Notes under the pieces: model-generated
Databases searched by the model: none
What the model was told of the DNA's origin: nothing
What the model saw: the letters and a program-made list of their open reading frames with translations, nothing else
Shown: one piece after another, positions 1 to 7,869 of the stretch
Numbering within the stretch: position 1 is the first letter of the stretch
How the letters are laid out: each line of letters starts with the position of its first letter
Source: Pseudomonadota bacterium
GTDB lineage: Bacteria > Myxococcota > UBA9042 > PHBI01
DNA: 7,869 bases
Direction: 5' to 3'
Assembly (NCBI GenBank): GCA_005788935.1
Contig: SYAK01000558.1
Coordinates: 1 to 7,869, forward strand
Program-made: the position numbers and the translations under genes

Positions 1-2594
1 CGCGTCTGCGCGAGCGGGCCGCGGTGCTCGAGCCGGCGCTCCGCAGCGAGCCGTGTGCGTTGGCGCGTTGGAGCCTGCTGAGCGGCGGCGTGCCAGCTCC
101 CGAAGCGTGGCGCGCGCGACCCGCTGAGGTCCGCGTGCCAGAGCGTTGTGATCGCGGCGGCTGCGACGTCGGGCCCGACCTCGCCGGGCCCGGCCGGTGT
201 ACGCCGGCAGAGCTTCGGGACTGGGCTCACCTTGTCGGGCGGCTCTGTCTGCTCGACGGCGCGATTGACTGCGCGCTGCCGGCCCTGCGACTGGCGCTGG
301 CCATGCAGCGCCCAACGCAGGGGCCGATCGAAGATCACGCGCGCCTCGACCTCGCCCGCGCGCTCGACGAGCTCGGCACGCCGGACGCGCTCGCCGAGGC
401 CGTCGAGGTGCTCCACAACGTCGCCGCGAACCCGATGTCGTCGGTCCGCCCCGAGGCCGCTCGCCTCGAGGGCGAGGTGCTGGCGAGGCTCGGGCGCCAC
501 GCGGAGGCGCGTGCCACCTGGACGGCGCTGCTAGGCCGCTGGCCGTCGTCACCCGTGTCGGAGGTGGTCCGTGTGGCGCTCGATGCGCTGCCGACTGGCG
601 GTCCCCCGGCCTTGTCGACCTCGGGGGCGAGCGGGCGATCACCGCGCGGGGCGGCCCGGGTCGCCAGTCTGGCCTTGGCTGGCGGGCCACCCGTGGTCGA
701 CGCCAGCCCCGCGCCGCGGGTCGACTTCGCGGCCATCGACAGGCTCATCGGCGAGCGGCGGCACGCCGAGGCGCAGGCGCTGCTCGAGGCCTGGCTACCC
801 CTCGCGGAGAGCGCGGACGCGGCTGAGCGGCGGCAGGGGCTCGAGGCCCTCGACCGGGCCGTCGACATCGCGTGGGAAGAGCATCGCTTCGGAGACGCGC
901 TCGTCGCCCACGCGCGCCTCCGCGACCACGGGCGGCGTGACGGCCTCCCGCGCCATCGACAGGCCCGCGCGCTGGCTTACGAGGGGCGCTTTGACGCGGC
1001 GCTCCGCCTCATGCGGCGAGACGAGGCCGTCGAGCTGCTGTTCGAGTTTGGACGCTGTGCCGAGGCGGTCCGGCTGACCCATGATCAGCCTCGCGCCCGC
1101 GGGAGGCGTCCCAAGGCTCGCGGGGCCTCGGACGCGCCTTCGGCACCGGCACCCGCGGAGGCGCCGATCGGTGTCGAGCTCGGGGTTGAGGCCGCGGGGG
1201 GCGACAACGCCGAGGTTGGGTCGCGAGGACGCCGGGGAGGCGCGCGGACACCGAGGGACGAGCGTACGGCGCTCTGCCTGCTGCAGGTGGGCCGTCACCG
1301 CGAGGCGGCCTCGTTCTGGGCGGGCAAGGGACGCGGCCGTGGGCGCGGCGACGCGCTGAAGGATCGCTACTGGTATGCGCGGGCCAAGGCGGCCGCGGGC
1401 CATCGGGATGAGGCCGCCCGCCTCTTCGCCTTCATCGTCGAGGATGATCCGGTCGATTACTACGGTCATCTCGCGTGGTCCCGTCTGCGCGAGCTGCGCG
1501 GCGAGGCGCCAGCCGAGGACGTCGCTCGCCCGACCAGGGTGGCGCATCGGGCGGTCGACCCGGCAGCGTGGAGGCCGAGCATTGCGTGGTCCGAGGCCTC
1601 GCTCGAGGGCGCATTCGATTGCGCGCGTCGCCCGGCTGAGCCCCCGGTCCTCGAGGCCACGCTGGCGGCCTTCGCCGAGCTGCAGGGAGGGCTGGCTCCC
1701 GAGGCGCATCGGGCCCTCGCCCTCGCGCGGCTCGGCGACCACCACGGTGCCCGGGAGGAGCTGCGCGTCATCGACGGCGACCTCCGGGCTGCGAAGCGTG
1801 GGGCGCGTGCGGTCGCCGAGCGGGCGCGGTCGGACCTGCTCGACAACCGCAGCGTCCCGAAGGCGCGCGGCGGGTTGTCCATGCGCGAGCCGGGTCGGCG
1901 GAACCTCTCGGAGGCGAAGGCCTTCACCCGCGCCATGGGCGGCCTGCGGCCCGAGTTGCGCATGGCGCAGGTGGCGCTCGCCGATCCATGGGGTCTGCGG
2001 CGTCACGTGTTCGAGACGGAGAGCACCGGCCGCCTCGAGCGCCTCCCAGCCTCGCTCGCCGAGGACGCCCACCCGATCGGCTACCCCGACGTGGTGGGTC
2101 CCATTGCGCGGCAATTTGGCCTGCCCCCCTATTACGTCTACGCCATCATGCTGACGGAGTCGTCCTTCCACCCCGGCGCGGTCAGCGTCGCCAACGCCTG
2201 GGGCCTGGTTCAGGTCATCCCGCCGACCGGGCGTCACCTCTCGCGCGAGCTCGGCTTTGCGGGCTTCAGCCCCGAGCAGCTGCTCGATCCGGCGCTGTCG
2301 GTGTACTTCGGTGGCTACTATCTCGGGCGCCTGCTGAACCGGTTCCGCGGGCAGGAGCTGCTCGCGGCGGCGGGCTACAACGCCGGACCGCATCGCGTGA
2401 CGCAGTGGTTGCTCGCGCGCGGGCACCTGCCGCATGACATGTTCGTCGAGATGATCCCCTACCAGCAGGCCAATCGATACGCGAAACGCGTCCTGCAGCA
2501 TGTGGGGAGCTATCGCCGCATCTACCACGGCGAGCCGAACACCTACGTGCGCAACACGCTCGCGACCGAGCTCGGCGAGGGTCCGAACTACTGA
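1..2594 (+). CDS. Soluble lytic murein transglycosylase, Slt70-like, 5'-truncated by the window edge
   Basis: This protein cleaves the MurNAc-GlcNAc bond of peptidoglycan in the periplasm, leaving a 1,6-anhydro end (family knowledge). The frame is open to the left edge (first whole codon at 3). The GTG at 24 has no Shine-Dalgarno and sits inside the open frame, so the true start and any signal peptide lie upstream. Residues below are numbered from that GTG. Residues about 60-350 are alpha-helical, Ala/Leu/Arg-rich TPR-like repeats. Residues about 357-413 are a low-complexity Arg/Gly/Pro/Ala insert. The helical part resumes with YWYARAK (449) and DYYGHLAW (478), both typical of Slt superhelical domains. 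The C-terminal SLT domain spans about 687-830: catalytic Glu712 in the ES motif (TESSF), GLVQ at 727-730, and GYNAG at 784-788. It ends with EMIPYQQANRY, where relatives usually have an IPYxET-like motif. The catalytic set is complete, so it should be active. It converges on the next gene and appears functionally unrelated to the cytochrome genes. Confidence 0.92.
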   Translation, partial: RLRERAAVLEPALRSEPCALARWSLLSGGVPAPEAWRARPAEVRVPERCDRGGCDVGPDLAGPGRCTPAELRDWAHLVGRLCLLDGAIDCALPALRLALAMQRPTQGPIEDHARLDLARALDELGTPDALAEAVEVLHNVAANPMSSVRPEAARLEGEVLARLGRHAEARATWTALLGRWPSSPVSEVVRVALDALPTGGPPALSTSGASGRSPRGAARVASLALAGGPPVVDASPAPRVDFAAIDRLIGERRHAEAQALLEAWLPLAESADAAERRQGLEALDRAVDIAWEEHRFGDALVAHARLRDHGRRDGLPRHRQARALAYEGRFDAALRLMRRDEAVELLFEFGRCAEAVRLTHDQPRARGRRPKARGASDAPSAPAPAEAPIGVELGVEAAGGDNAEVGSRGRRGGARTPRDERTALCLLQVGRHREAASFWAGKGRGRGRGDALKDRYWYARAKAAAGHRDEAARLFAFIVEDDPVDYYGHLAWSRLRELRGEAPAEDVARPTRVAHRAVDPAAWRPSIAWSEASLEGAFDCARRPAEPPVLEATLAAFAELQGGLAPEAHRALALARLGDHHGAREELRVIDGDLRAAKRGARAVAERARSDLLDNRSVPKARGGLSMREPGRRNLSEAKAFTRAMGGLRPELRMAQVALADPWGLRRHVFETESTGRLERLPASLAEDAHPIGYPDVVGPIARQFGLPPYYVYAIMLTESSFHPGAVSVANAWGLVQVIPPTGRHLSRELGFAGFSPEQLLDPALSVYFGGYYLGRLLNRFRGQELLAAAGYNAGPHRVTQWLLARGHLPHDMFVEMIPYQQANRYAKRVLQHVGSYRRIYHGEPNTYVRNTLATELGEGPNY

Positions 2595-2683
2595 CCTGCG
2601 AGGCGTGGGCTGGCGCTGCGATCGGCTGACGTCTCAAGGCGGGTCGGCCGGTGCGACCTGTCCTACGCGTGGTCCTGTCGCGT

Positions 2684-2700
2684 GACGTCGGGCCGACGTC
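2684..2700. terminator. Palindrome between convergent genes, possible bidirectional terminator
   Basis: GACGTCG-GGC-CGACGTC is a perfect 7-bp stem with a 3-nt loop in the 126-bp gap between the transglycosylase stop (2594) and the coiled-coil gene stop (2721). It would form on either strand, which suits convergent transcription. There is no T-run on either side, so it is not a canonical intrinsic terminator. A protein-binding site is equally possible. Nothing else stands out in 2595-2720. Confidence 0.35.
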
Positions 2701-2720
2701 CGCGCGCCGCGGGTCGGACC

Positions 2721-3218
2721 TCAGACCTCGTCGTCGCTGGCGTCGTCGGCGGCGTCAGCCTTCTTGCGGCTGCGGGACTTCTTCGGCTTGTCGTCTGGCT
2801 GACTCGCGGAGGCCGGCGGCGCGGAGGCCTGGGCGGCGCTCGATACGGACTGCGCTGTGAGCTCAGCCTGCAGCTTCGCGAGCTGCTCCTCGAGCTCCTT
2901 CGCGCGCGTCTCGAGCTTGCGGGCGTGACGCACCGCGTCCGCGAGCCCATCCTCGGCCCGATCGGCCCGCGTGCGTTCGGCCGCGAGCTGGTGCTCGAGG
3001 TTCGCGACCTGGTTCTGAAGCTCGCGCGCCTGGCGGTTCAGCAACTTGACCTCGGTCCGCGTCGCGAGCCGCAGCTTCTTCGCGAGCTCGCTGAGCGGCC
3101 CGTCGAGCGAGTCGAGCAGGCCCTCGCGCATGGCCGCGGCCCGCTGCAGCACCTCGGAGACCATCGGGTGGCCGAGGACACCCTCGCTTTCGCCACGCAT
3201 CGTCAGGAACTTCCACAT
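2721..3218 (-). CDS. Small coiled-coil protein with Lys-rich/acidic tail; UbiK- or phasin-like (function unknown)
   Basis: A 165-residue soluble protein without a signal peptide or membrane segment. Residues 1-50 are mixed helical. About 52-122 form a long, heptad-rich, highly charged coiled coil (for example ELQNQVANLEHQLAAE). About 123-140 are an Ala/Ser/Pro linker. The tail is Lys/Arg-rich (KPKKSRSRKK) and then acidic (DDASDDEV). The segment around LATRTEVKLLNRQARELQNQV resembles in pattern the coiled-coil end of UbiK/BMFP accessory proteins (LVSREEF...LLxR...L) and of phasin-type granule proteins; the Lys/Ala tail also recalls PhaF-like DNA-binding tails. This is pattern resemblance from memory, not an alignment. 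The start is firm: GGAGGG lies 8 nt before the ATG, and a promoter-like sequence lies further upstream. An internal ATG (3198-3200 on the plus strand) is less likely because it lacks that site. The gene is transcribed divergently from moaA. Confidence 0.8.
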   Translation of the reverse strand: MWKFLTMRGESEGVLGHPMVSEVLQRAAAMREGLLDSLDGPLSELAKKLRLATRTEVKLLNRQARELQNQVANLEHQLAAERTRADRAEDGLADAVRHARKLETRAKELEEQLAKLQAELTAQSVSSAAQASAPPASASQPDDKPKKSRSRKKADAADDASDDEV

Positions 3219-3226
3219 CTCGCTCG

Positions 3227-3232
3227 CCCTCC
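3227..3232 (-). promoter_or_regulatory. Shine-Dalgarno of the coiled-coil gene
   Basis: Read on the minus strand, GGAGGG ends 8 nt before the ATG at 3218. It decides the start in favour of the first methionine (MWKFLTM) rather than the one six codons later. Confidence 0.75.
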
Positions 3233-3256
3233 GCGGCCCGTCATCGTGGGGGCAGC

Positions 3257-3285
3257 GTCATTCCAAAGCATGCACCCCCTGTCAA
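3257..3285 (-). promoter_or_regulatory. Putative sigma-70-type promoter for the coiled-coil gene
   Basis: On the minus strand a perfect -35 box TTGACA (3280-3285) is followed after 17 nt by AATGAC (3257-3262), a weak -10 box with 3 of 6 matches to TATAAT. Transcription would begin near 3250, giving a leader of about 30 nt before the ATG at 3218. This is the least GC-rich part of the 131-bp divergent gap (3219-3349). I found no comparable pair on the plus strand for moaA. Confidence 0.45.
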
Positions 3286-3336
3286 CTTCACGGACGGGCG
3301 CGCGCGCGATCCTTGCGTTGCCCGCGGCCTGTCCCG

Positions 3337-3341
3337 TAAGG
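3337..3341 (+). promoter_or_regulatory. Shine-Dalgarno of moaA
   Basis: TAAGG lies 8 nt before the ATG at 3350. It overlaps a possible GTG at 3341, which argues against that GTG as the start. Confidence 0.55.
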
Positions 3342-3349
3342 TGCCGCCG

Positions 3350-4471
3350 ATGGAGCCACAGGCCACACTCCGCCCGCGCCCGCCCGCCGTCATCCCGGCT
3401 GGCGCGCTGCGCCTCGGGGGTGGGCAGGTGGCTCGCCCGGCCGCCGCGGGGCTCGGGTGGCGCGACGGTCAGGCGCGGGCGGTCCGATATCTTCGACTGT
3501 CGGTCGTGGACCGCTGCAACCTGCGTTGCCGGTATTGCATGCCGGCCGAGGGGGTCCCCTTCGTGCCGAAGGCCGACCTGCTCAGCTTCGAAGAGCTCGC
3601 GCGGCTCACGCGCGTCTTCGTGCGCTTCGGGGTCCGTTCCGTGCGCCTGACGGGCGGCGAGCCCCTCGTGCGTCGCGACCTGCCCGCGCTCGTGGCGCGC
3701 CTCGCCGCGATCCCCGGGCTCGAGGACCTCGCGCTGTCGACCAACGCCACCCACCTCGCGCCCCTCGCACGCCCCCTGCGCGCAGCGGGCCTCCACCGCG
3801 TCAACGTGTCGCTCGACAGCCTCGACGCGGCGACCTTCGCCGACATCACCCGCAGCGACACCTTGCCGCGCGTCCTGGCAGGGCTCGACGCGGCCGCCGA
3901 CGCGGGGCTCGGGCCGATCAAGCTGAACGTCGTTGTCCTCCGCGGCCGCAACGACCACGAGCTGCCCGACCTCGTCCGATTCGCGGCGAGCCGCGGCTTC
4001 GTCCTGCGCTTCATCGAGTCGATGCCGATCGGGGTCGACGATTTCTGGTCGCCCGAGAGCCACGTGCCGATCGACGCGATGCTCGCGACCCTGCGCCGTG
4101 ACTTCGACGTCACCGAACCTGGGGCCGCTCCTTCCGACGTCGGCCTCGCAGGCGGCGGTCCAGCTCGCTATGCCCTGTGTACGCCGCGGGGGGCGCCGCT
4201 CGGCACGCCACCAGTCCGCGTCGGCTTCATCGCCGCGCTGAGCCAGAACTTCTGCAGCACCTGCAACCGCGTCCGCGTAACTGCCACGGGGGTGCTGCAG
4301 GAGTGCCTCGCGTTTCCAGGCCAGCTGTCCTTGCGTGACCTGATGCGCAGCGGGGCCGATGACGACGCCTTGGCCGACGCCATCGGCGCAGCACTCGCGA
4401 CCAAGGGCCCTGGCCACGGCTTCGCCGAGGGTCAGTTCACATACCAGAGCATGAGCGTCACGGGAGGTTGA
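3350..4471 (+). CDS. moaA: GTP 3',8-cyclase MoaA (radical SAM, molybdenum cofactor synthesis)
   Basis: MoaA is a cytoplasmic radical-SAM enzyme that converts GTP to 3',8-cH2GTP, the first step of molybdenum cofactor synthesis; MoaC acts next (family knowledge). The N-terminal [4Fe-4S] motif CNLRCRYC (CxxxCxxC) gives Cys56, Cys60 and Cys63. RLTGGEPLVRRDL is the SAM-binding GGEP segment. The C-terminal cluster motif CSTCNRV...ECL (C-x2-C-x13-C) gives Cys302, Cys305 and Cys319. The protein ends in SMSVTGG, the conserved Gly-Gly tail that reaches into the active site. All diagnostic residues are present. The ATG at 3350 gives 373 residues, with an Arg/Pro/Ala-rich N-terminal extension of about 30 residues over typical members. 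An in-frame GTG at 3428, preceded by a G-rich stretch, would remove most of it. Only 2 nt separate its stop from ccmE, so co-transcription is likely. moaC and moaE are not in the window. Confidence 0.95.
   Translation: MEPQATLRPRPPAVIPAGALRLGGGQVARPAAAGLGWRDGQARAVRYLRLSVVDRCNLRCRYCMPAEGVPFVPKADLLSFEELARLTRVFVRFGVRSVRLTGGEPLVRRDLPALVARLAAIPGLEDLALSTNATHLAPLARPLRAAGLHRVNVSLDSLDAATFADITRSDTLPRVLAGLDAAADAGLGPIKLNVVVLRGRNDHELPDLVRFAASRGFVLRFIESMPIGVDDFWSPESHVPIDAMLATLRRDFDVTEPGAAPSDVGLAGGGPARYALCTPRGAPLGTPPVRVGFIAALSQNFCSTCNRVRVTATGVLQECLAFPGQLSLRDLMRSGADDDALADAIGAALATKGPGHGFAEGQFTYQSMSVTGG
4463..4468 (+). promoter_or_regulatory. Shine-Dalgarno of ccmE, formed by the last two sense codons of moaA
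   Basis: GGAGGT is a perfect Shine-Dalgarno 5 nt before the ATG at 4474. The same six bases are the codons GGA GGT for the C-terminal Gly-Gly of MoaA, directly before its TGA. This selects ATG 4474 over the TTG at 4468, which would overlap the site. Confidence 0.8.
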
Positions 4472-4473
4472 GC

Positions 4474-4983
4474 ATGCGCGAACCCCGCCCCGCCCGCCGC
4501 GGGATACCTGTCGGTGGCATCATCTTCGCGGTCGTCGTCGTCGGTGTGGCCCTCGTCATCCTCGCGACCACGAGTGGCGGGCAATACGCCGTCGCCATTG
4601 ATCAGATCGCCGCGAGCCCTGACAAGTTCACCGGACAGAAGCTGCGCGTGACGGGCAACATCAAGGCCGGGTCATCGCGCTTCCTGACCGCCAACGGACA
4701 GCCCGAGACGCGGTTTGCCATCGTCGATGAACACGGCAACACCCTCGAGGTGCTCTACCAGCAGGCGCCGCCCGACCCGTTCAAGGAAGGGCGCAGTGCG
4801 GTCGTCGAGGGTGTCCTGCAAGAGGACGGGTCAATCCTCTGCCACAAGCTGACCGTCAAGTGCCCGAGCAAGTACCAGGGCGAGGGCGGCGACGCGGCCG
4901 AAGACCCGTGGACTTCGCCCGACTACGACCGCTACCGCAAGGGGGTCGAGTCGAAGCCCTCGGCCGGGCCCGACGGCACCTGA
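4474..4983 (+). CDS. ccmE: Cytochrome c maturation heme chaperone CcmE, cysteine (CxxxY) variant
   Basis: CcmE is a membrane-anchored periplasmic protein that binds heme covalently and hands it to the CcmF/CcmH ligation complex. This copy has 169 residues, near the family norm (about 160). A short Arg-rich cytoplasmic N-terminus is followed by one membrane anchor (about 11-32, GGIIFAVVVVGVALVIL). Then comes the OB-fold beta domain: YAVAIDQIAASPDKFTGQKLRVTGNI, RFAIVDEHGNTLEVLYQQAPPDPFKEG and VVEGVLQEDGSI. The heme-attachment site, LAKHDENY (HxxxY) in the E. coli protein, is here TVKCPSKY, with Cys130 and Tyr134. Cys replaces the His, as described for the CcmE of Desulfovibrio-type System I* machinery. 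A second cysteine, Cys123, lies seven residues earlier, next to His124. A flexible acidic/Pro tail ends the protein. The ATG at 4474 is favoured by the GGAGGT site in the end of moaA; ccmF follows after 43 nt. Confidence 0.93.
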   Translation: MREPRPARRGIPVGGIIFAVVVVGVALVILATTSGGQYAVAIDQIAASPDKFTGQKLRVTGNIKAGSSRFLTANGQPETRFAIVDEHGNTLEVLYQQAPPDPFKEGRSAVVEGVLQEDGSILCHKLTVKCPSKYQGEGGDAAEDPWTSPDYDRYRKGVESKPSAGPDGT

Positions 4984-5026
4984 GGTCCACTCTTTCCAGT
5001 TCCAACCATCACGGACACCTGACGGC

Positions 5027-7869
5027 ATGCAGTCTTTCGGCCAGCTCCTCCTCGTCCTGACGTTTGTCGCAGGCTGCGCGACCCTCGTCGTCGCGGTGCT
5101 CGGGGCCACTTCGCGCCGTCCGGGCTGGATGCAGGGAGCCCGCGCGGGGCTCCTCGCGGTCGCCCTGTTGTCGGTCGCGATGGCAGCGGTTTTGACCCAC
5201 GGGTTCCTGACGCACGCATTCGAGAGCCGTTACATATCGCAGTATTCAGACCGCTCGATGCCGCTCGTCTACCTCCTCGCCTCGTTCTGGGGCGGGGAGC
5301 GCGGGGCGCTGCTCTTCTGGGTCGTGTCGCTCGCGGTCTTCTCGAACATCGCGGTGTGGACCAAACGCGACCGCGAGCAGGTCTACATGACCTGGGTCAC
5401 GGCGATCCTGTCGGGCGCCATCCTGTTCTTCCTGATGTTGATGGTGTTTCAGACGTCGCCTTTCGACACGTGGATGGTGAACGCCATCCCGGAGGACGGC
5501 GAGGGGCTGAATCCGCTGCTGCAGAACCCGGTGATGGCCTTTCACCCGCCATCGCTGCTCACGGGCTACATCCTCTTCACGATCCCGTTCGCGTTCGGCA
5601 TGGCGGCCCTCATCACGGGGCGCCTCGACGACACGTGGATCGCCGACACCCGCCGCTGGACCATCGTGTCGTGGACGTTCCTCAGCGTCGGGCTGCTGCT
5701 CGGTTGCCGCTGGGCCTACATGGAGATCGGCTGGGGCTTCTGGTGGATGTGGGACGCCGTCGAGAACGCCGGCCTCATTCCCTGGTTCACCGCCACCGCG
5801 TATCTCCACAGCGTGATGATCCAGGAGCGGCGCGGCATGCTGAAACGCTGGAACGTCGTGCTGCTGGCGCTGACGTTCCTCCTGACCATCTTCGGTACCT
5901 TCCTGACGCGCAGTCAGCTCATCGTCAGCATCCACGCCTTCGCCGACTCCGAGCTCTCGGACTGGTTCCTCGGCTATCTCGTCGTCATCGCGGCCGTGTC
6001 GGGCGTCGTCATCGCGCGTCGCTGGGGGGCGCTGCGCTCGGAGGCCCGCATCGACGCCTTCATGTCGCGCGAGGCGATGTTCGTGCTGAACAACGTCATC
6101 CTCGTCTTCTGCGCCTTCGTGACGCTCTACGGCACGTTGATGGGCAAGATCACCGAGAGTGAGGCTGTTCGCAGCGCGCTCGAGCTCGCAGAGCCCATCG
6201 TCTGGGACGAGGCGAAGTTCAACGAGGTCTTCGTGCCGCTCGGGCTTGGCCTGCTGCTCATCATGGGGATTGGGCCGCTCATCTCGTGGCGGCGCGCAAC
6301 GGCCCGCAACTTCAGGAAGAACTTCGTTTGGCCGCTCGCGTGGGGGAGCCTCGTGACCTTCGTCGGAGCGAGCATCGGCATCGGGCTGACGCTCGCGGAC
6401 ATGGCGCGCGTCTACCAGATGGACCTCGCGGGCGCCTGGCAGGCCTGGCTGCCGACTCTCGAGGTCGCCGACTGGCTCTCCATGCTCGTCTACTGGATGT
6501 CGGCGTTCGTGATGGCCTCGATGACGCGCGAGCTGCACCTCGCGGCGCGGGCCCAGGCGCTACGAGGCCTCGGCGGTTACTTCGGGCGCGGTCTCGTCAT
6601 CGTCTTCCGCAACCCCCGTCGCTACGGCGGCTACGTCGTGCACGCAGGCATCGTCTTCATGTTCGTGGCCTTTACCGGCAAGGCCTTCAAGACCGAGGAG
6701 AAGGACCGGGTCGTCAGCCCGGGCGAGACCCACGTGCTCGGGGATTATGCGCTGACGCTCGTCGACCGCGACCGCCGTTACAGCGCCGAAGACGGCTGCG
6801 TCATCACCGACGCGACGTTTGTCGCGATGCCCCTGCGCACGACCGTCGCGGAGGCGTCGGTCGAGCGCCTGTCGGCGTGGCTGACGGCGCGGGGCGTCGG
6901 GGCCTTTCACGTCACGACCGACTGGGACAGCCCGCGGATGCTCGTGCGCTTCGGGGACGCGGCCGCGCGGCGCCAGCTCGAGCTCGAGGCGTTCCTTGTG
7001 CGGCGGTTCCTGCCGCGCTTCAAGCGGCAGTCCGAGGACCGCACCAGCGGGACCGAGACCTGGGTCTTCGCGGACGACGCCCTGCTGTCGGCCCTGCCGA
7101 TGGCCGGCATGCAGGCCATTCGCGAGGCGCGCGAGCGGTTGACCGGGGCGGTGACCGGGCTCTCGGCCGAGAGCCGGGGCGGCAGCGCGGCCCTGACGCT
7201 CAGGTTCGGGACCGACGCGGCGAGGACCGCCTTCGAGGCCGCCACGCGCGCCGAGCTGCCGCCGTGGGTGCTGTCGGTGGCGGATGACGCCGAGGCCGGT
7301 GCGCTCGCGGTGGTCGACCGTGGGACAGGCCAGGTGCTCGTGCCCGAGTCGCGCTTCTACGCGCGCAAGGGGCAGATGACGACCGAGGTCGCGCTGTCCC
7401 AGGCCGACTTCCTCGTCGACGTCTACCTCTCGGTTCAGTCGGACATGTCGGGCGCGCCGACGGTCAAGGTGTTCGCGGTCATCTTCCCGCTGGTCAACTT
7501 CCTGTGGATCGGCGGCTTCCTGTTGCTCGTCGGCGCGGCCATCTGCCTCGCGCCGCGCTGGGTCGGCAAGACGCTCGCGTCGTTCTTCGGTGTGCGCGGT
7601 GACGGGGCCGAAGAAGGGGGCGCCCCCGTGGTGGGACCGACGTCCGTGACGTCGGTCGCGATCGTGGTGGTCGCGGTGGGCGCGGCGCTGCTGCTGGCGG
7701 GGGAGGCGCGTGCGCACGAGGCGCCGCCGCGGACGGTCGCGCCGCATGGCTTCCCGCAGCCTGGGCCCGACCCGCTGGCCGAGACGCTCGGATCGCTGAC
7801 GTGCGGCTGCCCCTCGTCCACGGCGACGACCCTCGCCGACGCGGCGTGTGCATGTGACGCGGCCCGCTC
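5027..7869 (+). CDS. ccmF: Heme lyase subunit CcmF with duplicated periplasmic insert and CcmH-like C-terminal extension; 3' end beyond window
   Basis: An integral inner-membrane protein that takes heme from CcmE and attaches it to apocytochrome c. The frame runs without a stop from the ATG at 5027 to the window edge (947 whole codons), far beyond the roughly 650 residues of ordinary CcmF. The core is clear: NPVMAFHPPSLL with His173; the WWD motif GWGFWWMWDAVENAG at 235-249; His261 in AYLHSV; GTFLTRS and His303 in SIHAFAD; and YVVHAG with His539 as the probable second transmembrane heme ligand (His491 in E. coli, from memory). Many hydrophobic helices are visible. The late periplasmic domain holds an insert (about 600-757) before the conserved PESRFYARKGQMTTEV (773-788). 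The usual last helix and basic end (about 815-848, CLAPRWVGK) follow. After these come an extra hydrophobic segment (about 874-891) and a cysteine-rich stretch (926-943). The Shine-Dalgarno before 5027 is weak, and the upstream frame offers no other ATG or GTG start back to the ccmE stop. WWD reads DAVEN, where DPVEN is usual. Confidence 0.95.
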   Translation, partial: MQSFGQLLLVLTFVAGCATLVVAVLGATSRRPGWMQGARAGLLAVALLSVAMAAVLTHGFLTHAFESRYISQYSDRSMPLVYLLASFWGGERGALLFWVVSLAVFSNIAVWTKRDREQVYMTWVTAILSGAILFFLMLMVFQTSPFDTWMVNAIPEDGEGLNPLLQNPVMAFHPPSLLTGYILFTIPFAFGMAALITGRLDDTWIADTRRWTIVSWTFLSVGLLLGCRWAYMEIGWGFWWMWDAVENAGLIPWFTATAYLHSVMIQERRGMLKRWNVVLLALTFLLTIFGTFLTRSQLIVSIHAFADSELSDWFLGYLVVIAAVSGVVIARRWGALRSEARIDAFMSREAMFVLNNVILVFCAFVTLYGTLMGKITESEAVRSALELAEPIVWDEAKFNEVFVPLGLGLLLIMGIGPLISWRRATARNFRKNFVWPLAWGSLVTFVGASIGIGLTLADMARVYQMDLAGAWQAWLPTLEVADWLSMLVYWMSAFVMASMTRELHLAARAQALRGLGGYFGRGLVIVFRNPRRYGGYVVHAGIVFMFVAFTGKAFKTEEKDRVVSPGETHVLGDYALTLVDRDRRYSAEDGCVITDATFVAMPLRTTVAEASVERLSAWLTARGVGAFHVTTDWDSPRMLVRFGDAAARRQLELEAFLVRRFLPRFKRQSEDRTSGTETWVFADDALLSALPMAGMQAIREARERLTGAVTGLSAESRGGSAALTLRFGTDAARTAFEAATRAELPPWVLSVADDAEAGALAVVDRGTGQVLVPESRFYARKGQMTTEVALSQADFLVDVYLSVQSDMSGAPTVKVFAVIFPLVNFLWIGGFLLLVGAAICLAPRWVGKTLASFFGVRGDGAEEGGAPVVGPTSVTSVAIVVVAVGAALLLAGEARAHEAPPRTVAPHGFPQPGPDPLAETLGSLTCGCPSSTATTLADAACACDAAR
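6824..7297 (+). other. Extra duplicated domain inserted in the CcmF periplasmic loop
   Basis: Residues about 600-757 of CcmF lie between the beta segment DYALTLVDRDRRY and the conserved VVDRGTGQVLVPESRFY, a place where ordinary CcmF has only a short connection. Two halves look alike. Unit 1 (614-652) runs RLSAWLTARGV...MLVRFGDAAARRQLE. Unit 2 (704-737) runs RLTGAVTG...ALTLRFGTDAARTAFE. Both have the order helix, short strand, strand ending in RFG, then an AAR helix. I recognise no named domain. The similarity was judged by eye. Confidence 0.55.
7616..7656 (+). repeat. Two adjacent inverted repeats in the CcmF to CcmH-like linker
   Basis: GGGGGCGCCCCC (7616-7627) is a perfect 12-bp palindrome. 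It is followed closely by ACCGACGT-CCGTG-ACGTCGGT (7636-7656), an 8-bp stem with a 5-nt loop; the flanking bases G7635 and C7657 add a further pair. Both lie in coding sequence exactly where the ordinary CcmF part ends and the extra hydrophobic segment begins. No T-run follows. Such repeats are easier to get by chance in GC-rich DNA. Confidence 0.5.
7646..7869 (+). other. Additional membrane segment plus CcmH-like cysteine-rich domain fused to CcmF (partial)
   Basis: Residues about 874-896 read VTSVAIVVVAVGAALLLAGE followed by ARAHEA, a hydrophobic helix ending in an AxA-like site. About 30 residues of Pro-rich linker lead to LAETLGSLTCGCP and then LADAACACDAAR, with Cys926, Cys928, Cys941 and Cys943. 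CcmH/CycL/NrfF proteins have an N-terminal LRCxxCQ thiol motif after a signal peptide or anchor, and several deltaproteobacterial-type relatives carry a denser CxCGC...C.C pattern in the same place (from memory). The preceding CcmF end is basic, and therefore probably cytoplasmic, so one further helix would put these cysteines in the periplasm, where CcmH works. The window stops here, so the rest of the domain is unseen. Confidence 0.55.

Follow-up and report, generated by a model that had tools for sequence, protein, structure and literature searches.

A Myxococcota ccmF gene that continues in frame into a CcmH-related, cysteine-rich tail

The window analyzed here is a 7,869-nucleotide stretch of DNA (contig SYAK01000558.1, assembly GCA_005788935.1, positions 1 to 7,869 of the forward strand) from a Pseudomonadota bacterium placed by GTDB in the Myxococcota, and the subject of this report is its ccmF gene, the reading frame of which does not stop where CcmF ends. 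We propose, with a probability of roughly 0.8, that this gene specifies the CcmF heme lyase and, in the same frame, a complete CcmH-derived precursor, the two being made as one chain; the precursor would consist of a signal peptide, tandem CcmH-like cysteine modules and a C-terminal transmembrane (TM) anchor. That CcmF is fused in frame to a CcmH-related domain, as suggested by an initial annotation made from the sequence alone, is confirmed in this bacterium and in many of its relatives. CcmF is reported to need CcmH within CcmFH, the holocytochrome c synthase complex (PMC10746174), and in the literature consulted the name CcmFH designates a complex of two proteins.

The frame at 5027-7867 (forward strand) comprises 947 open codons and reaches the end of the window without a stop. 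Its continuation was found in protein P0031 (1132 aa), which is marked as a product of the window's own DNA; its residues 1-947 are identical to the window protein and its chain ends at residue 1132. The initial annotation had thus read the passage through the end of CcmF (near residue 848) correctly, and P0031 supplied the extension past position 7869 for which it had called. Since P0031 matches all 947 residues and reads on to its own end, the open frame is not due to a local indel, and the concern that such an error had merged two genes was not borne out, relatives also sharing the tail. The Gly/Glu linker, the hydrophobic stretch, the AxA site and cysteines 926, 928, 941 and 943 had likewise been recognized correctly. 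In P0031, the tail spans ~285 residues and contains an internal signal-peptide-like segment ending in A-R-A, two cysteine modules, a TM helix and a cytoplasmic end. A plasmid search with the gene returned no match. The features of the gene are the following.

5027..7564, forward strand: CcmF part, residues 1-846, the heme lyase core (PF01578, PF16327, histidines, Foldseek)
7565..7645, forward strand: residues 847-873, basic linker rich in Gly and Glu that follows the last CcmF helix, the predicted cytoplasmic n-region of the internal signal segment (Gly/Glu part about 856-870)
7646..7699, forward strand: residues 874-891, the hydrophobic stretch serving as h-region in the signal-peptide-like internal segment (sequence)
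7706..7714, forward strand: A894-R895-A896, predicted signal peptidase I site with the cut after A896 (aligned columns)
7757..7867, forward strand: start of CcmH-like module 1, residues 911-947 (whole module about 911-983; sequence, alignment, profiles, model)
7802-7804, 7808-7810, 7847-7849 and 7853-7855, forward strand: module 1 cysteines C926, C928, C941 and C943 (sequence)
Beyond the window end, seen in P0031: remainder of module 1, then module 2 (about 984-1056; C999, C1014), TM helix (about 1071-1094) and cytoplasmic end

Both Pfam domains of CcmF scored above cut-off (PF01578, 117.4 bits with a cut-off of 29.9; PF16327, 99.6 bits with a cut-off of 28.7), and the W-rich segment W236-D243 (WGFWWMWD) is kept. 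The heme-ligand histidines, two periplasmic and two in the membrane (PMC10746174, PMC8975832), were present in every gap-free row of the alignment (H173, 64/64; H261, 64/64; H303, 65/65; H539, 66/66). When a model of the whole protein built from 66 sequences (predicted local distance difference test score [pLDDT] 85.4, predicted template modelling score 0.82) was compared with the PDB by Foldseek, the best match was CcmF (6zmq, E 1.5e-20), which was also the sole match at E <=0.001; the tail was unmatched among the matches listed. NCBIfam TIGR00353 (CcmF/NrfE) gave 310.6 bits, below its curated cut-off of 569, and NCBIfam gave no name for the tail. Window positions 6779-7426 encode the large periplasmic stretch of CcmF, ~200 residues in which helices alternate with strands in the model; this stretch has no Pfam domain of its own and a weak match to CcmF_C (PF16327) at its end only.

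Among 121 relatives (the best 120 of 7947 matches, plus P0003), 67 possess more than 150 residues after CcmF stops, unlike the remaining 54. All of these tails but one align as a single family, such that the survey of relatives recommended by the initial annotation found the CcmH-type tail kept in 66/121. The odd one out, P0074 (1233 aa), was omitted from the tail counts; an OmpA-like domain (PF00691), possibly binding peptidoglycan, replaces the CcmH tail in this protein. A second class, the single-module fusion, carries a CcmH domain in CcmF's frame and occurs in many sampled genomes of the phylum. Nineteen of the 20 single-module regions that were read have CcmF and CcmH in one frame, and in L131 (genome G198) CcmF and the CcmH tail are encoded by separate, overlapping frames, which reflects either a sequencing error or a split that happened recently. 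Eight of eight single-module frames run against Pfam displayed three domains each above cut-off. A search with one single-module tail yielded 201 proteins, and PF16327 and PF03918 (CcmH) were found in each of the best 120 of them; this class is thus visible in domain databases, even if the names among the matches listed were CcmF, CcsA or heme lyase only. One such fusion is in a protein named from cultured Sandaracinus amylolyticus, encoded on a 10,327,335-base contig.

In a sample of 282 genomes, many of them in many contigs and perhaps incomplete, no fewer than 44 carry one fusion or the other. Eight are of the window type (G001, G125, G149, G168, G205, G215, G243 and G002, the frame of which is broken by contig ends) and 36 are single-module (19 read as sequence, 11 assigned by same contig and frame length, including G133, which has no PF03918 match at 1e-4, and six taken from search tables). 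The architecture, which the initial annotation did not know as a common one, is not rare in the phylum.

Pfam, proposed earlier as the check for CcmH, failed to recognize the window-type tail: PF03918 did not match it, and comparison of 27 tail pieces with this model gave one match, at E 0.0031. The CcmH active-site motif LRCXXC is absent, P0031 having C999-P-G-E and C1014 instead. Profile comparison with shuffle controls, together with structural similarity at modest Z, nevertheless indicates that the tail shares ancestry with CcmH. Module 2 reached 98.3% against the four-Cys CcmH domains of single-module fusions (the 13 of 20 regions that fitted the pattern) and 94.3% against 20 canonical CcmH (a set leaving out L094 and L101), while module 1 reached 95.4% against the four-Cys set and 81.9% against module 2; the maxima obtained with 100 column-shuffled templates for each of these four comparisons were 3.9, 7.8, 6.4 and 11.2%, respectively. 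Three of 27 tail pieces also matched PCYCGC (PF13798), with a best E of 0.00018; this family is a possible relative of multi-Cys CcmH.

Some comparisons gave weaker support. With the window's clade alone, the scores against the four-Cys set were weaker (83.8% for module 2 and 86.6% for module 1), and module 1 against module 2 gave just 1.4%, so that the case for a module duplication depends on the wider set of rows; module 1, with all rows, scored 12% against canonical CcmH. As to structure, a model of the tail of fused locus L002 (27 sequences, pLDDT 91.7) displays the three-helix periplasmic fold of CcmH. Because Foldseek found nothing for it at E <=0.001, the structural match depends on a second look by VIA-align realignment, in which the top two chains were CcmH domains of known structure, each aligned with module 2. 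Searching PDB sequences with a profile of the tail gave nothing meaningful.

The invariant cysteines of P0031 stand 15 apart within each module, and C926, C941, C999 and C1014 were conserved in 85/85 rows (66 fused proteins and 19 stand-alone relatives). C928 and C943, each Cys in 52/66 fused rows, are not invariant. The four cysteines that the initial annotation placed in a CcmH-like setting are present, but they belong to the added module 1, the module with the CcmH fold (module 2) lying beyond the window. CxC/CxC occurs in module 1 without CxC in module 2 in 39 of the 66 fused proteins, CxC is confined to module 2 in 13, both modules have it in 13 and neither in one; at least one module thus keeps a CxC-type set in 65/66. 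In these rows, related by descent, the pattern looks like a division of labor between the modules. In the whole-protein model, the modules fold at a pLDDT of about 71-93 and most of residues 861-904 fall below 50. A short Pro-rich stretch separates AxA from module 1, and the cytoplasmic end of the tail has a recurring pattern, L....R..L.DEL.

The segment linking CcmF to the modules resembles a signal peptide, with a short h-region, often Gly or Pro ahead of AxA, and small residues at -3 and -1 as in substrates of signal peptidase I. Ala occupied the two AxA columns in 58/66 and 55/66 rows (entropy 0.81 and 0.89), compared with an entropy of 3.65 in the column before AxA and 2.89 in that between the two Ala. 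AxA followed the hydrophobic stretch in 57/65 rows (P0115, whose segment is too short, being left out) versus 35.2 expected from shuffled residues, and followed control helices in 13/66 and 9/66 rows, near their own expectation (10.6 and 5.5). The corresponding count in single-module fusions was 93/120 versus 57.3 expected when the choice of segment was narrowed; a broader pick, often landing on the last CcmF helix, gave 60/120 versus 36.7. With AxA kept while its neighbors drift, and with a cleaved N-terminal signal peptide mentioned for E. coli CcmH (PMC8975832), we lean toward cleavage: signal peptidase I probably cuts after A-R-A, which would yield two ordinary, separate subunits, CcmF and an anchored CcmH. 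A substantial share of our expectation nonetheless goes to other fates of the chain, chiefly an uncut tether.

Such a tether, which we regard as less likely than not, would make the hydrophobic segment an extra TM helix and hold CcmH covalently at the CcmF active site, in the manner of the natural CcsBA fusions of System II, which work as one chain (PMC10663686). Fused forms do extend through much of the CcmF tree, and some 40 low-confidence residues near the segment could supply slack; an uncut helix, however, offers no evident reason for the retention of AxA amid drifting residues, or for the signal-peptide-like h-region and the Gly or Pro before AxA. The covalent fusion put forward in the initial annotation accordingly stands in that one chain is encoded, whereas a lasting tether is uncertain given that the conserved AxA argues for a possible cut.

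We consider it improbable that the tail, rich in Cys, serves another function such as metal or heme binding and is CcmH-like in looks only. Although the failure of PF03918, the missing CXXC and weak matches to the PCYCGC (3/27) and metallothionein (1/27) models would suit such a domain, the profile and structure comparisons point to CcmH, the tail occupies the place of a Pfam-recognized CcmH in single-module fusions, and L081 has a bridging form, in which the module 2 behind module 1 is matched by the single-module CcmH profile at 4.8e-13. An internal translation start, by which initiation in frame ahead of the signal segment would also yield a separate CcmH precursor, is more improbable still: the GTG at window position 7628 (codon 868) follows a 5/6 match to AGGAGG and would open a plausible signal peptide, but comparable starts were found in just 2/23 scored fused loci, window included (26 loci less L005, L007 and L010), and start codons scoring >=5 made up 3/42 in this region versus 30/1544 elsewhere. 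An assembly artefact joining two genes is close to inconceivable, for even though many records are metagenome assemblies, the tail is common to 66/121 relatives on many separate contigs, and the single-module fusion is seen in the S. amylolyticus protein, the contig of which measures 10.3 Mb.

A tree of 136 CcmF cores, built with FastTree after removal of the tails, requires eight architecture changes in total; a single branch sets the 19 single-module fusions apart, and the fused protein P0051 adjoins a large group made up of 42 tail-less proteins and one with OmpA. Read without a root, this placement of fused and tail-less forms fits an old fusion followed by several later splits, in a tree where long branches meet (L118, L128) and single-module rows were crudely trimmed. 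Left out of it were P0003, P0040 and P0114 (without the front part), P0041 (which ends in CcmF) and L131 (two frames). In 18 of 22 genomes with a tail-less CcmF (best loci L009 and L012-L032), the tail occupies a frame of its own on a different contig; no tail was found in the other four (G120, G144, G187, G238). PF03918 scored above cut-off in 205/282 genomes and in one of the eight window-type genomes (G215, in a separate frame). The loss of a separate ccmH that the initial annotation had proposed to look for is thus matched by the lack of PF03918 in 7/8 window-type genomes, but this lack alone is not proof of loss, since 8/8 tail-less-CcmF genomes tested have no match above cut-off either.

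The gene preceding ccmF bears on the type of maturation system.

4468..4983, forward strand: ccmE with Cys-type heme site CPSKY (4861-4875), System I* type (PF03100, 74.9 bits, cut-off 24.6)

Cys replaces His in this heme site, as in System I*, described as a Cys-type CcmE variant (PMC3601427). The absence of a CcmH gene, reported for part of the System I* group, does not apply here, a CcmH-derived tail being present; about one third of bacteria with Cys-type CcmE are reported to contain CcmH (PMC3601427). CPSKY or CPSRY was found in 14 of 15 further CcmE loci, from fused and unfused genomes and not always beside ccmF; in the CcmE of L141 the motif pattern found nothing. By Pfam, 7/8 window-type genomes would score as CcmH-less, yet they have the CcmH-derived tail. 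In L002, ccmE is followed in order by the fused ccmF-ccmH, a short gene for a CcmI-like protein (TIGR03142 at 11.6 bits, below its cut-off of 29.3), a gene that Pfam does not match, one for an ABC ATPase, and ccmB. Directly upstream of ccmE, at window positions 3341-4471, lies a moaA-type gene (Radical_SAM, Mob_synth_C); L001 has a frame that looks similar by eye at 6275-7453. A coiled-coil-like protein is also encoded upstream of ccmE in the window (2721-3218, reverse strand) and in L002 (173-748, reverse strand), the two being alike by eye; the L002 gene gave a Phasin match below cut-off (E 0.00048).

For a CcmF heme lyase and a CcmH-derived precursor made as one chain, we infer the topology, export and thiol-redox role of the tail as follows. 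Synthesis as a single chain would set a 1:1 ratio of both holocytochrome c synthase subunits. The last CcmF helix would end in the cytoplasm and the internal signal segment re-enter the membrane, bringing the Cys modules into the periplasm next to the CcmF heme site, where their role may be to reduce the CXXCH thiols of apocytochrome c and to hold them; given the conserved AxA, signal peptidase may split the product in two. More tentatively, a branch of the Myxococcota may produce holocytochrome c synthase in the form of a polyprotein that signal peptidase processes and in which CcmH has been duplicated into two Cys modules sharing the thiol work. If so, some System I* bacteria scored as CcmH-less would hide CcmH inside CcmF. 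Surveys based on Pfam can overlook CcmH, a point of relevance to the idea that many systems with Cys-type CcmE do without it. The natural one-gene form would also provide a fixed 1:1 pair, a ready construct for structural work as CcsBA was for System II; the available text of one review mentions no experimental structure of the CcmF-CcmH pair (PMC10663686).

No description of a natural CcmF-CcmH fusion was found in a literature search that left subscription journals mostly outside it, nor does one occur in the available portions of PMC9012536, PMC3884852, PMC10663686, PMC10746174, PMC8975832, PMC9084895, PMC12285233 and PMC3601427. Compared with CcmFH of System I (E. coli, Rhodobacter), the window protein combines the same two functions and keeps the four heme-ligand His and the W-rich segment; CcmF and CcmH are separate chains there, whereas here one gene encodes both and the CcmH-derived tail has two Cys modules and no CXXC. 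The fbcH cytochrome b/c1 polyprotein of Bradyrhizobium similarly joins a membrane and a periplasmic protein via a cleavable internal signal peptide (our search found no text on its cutting), but the proteins differ and cutting is here a prediction only. E. coli CcmH, a CcmH-CcmI fusion, is likewise a fusion within the heme-ligation complex (PMC3601427); its partner, however, is CcmI rather than CcmF, and L002 has a separate CcmI-like gene. In the natural CcsBA fusion of System II, a heme-handling protein is also joined to its partner (PMC10663686), although the partner and the pathway are others. With System I*, finally, the window shares CPSKY in CcmE, but here the CcmH-derived part is present, fused to CcmF and divergent.

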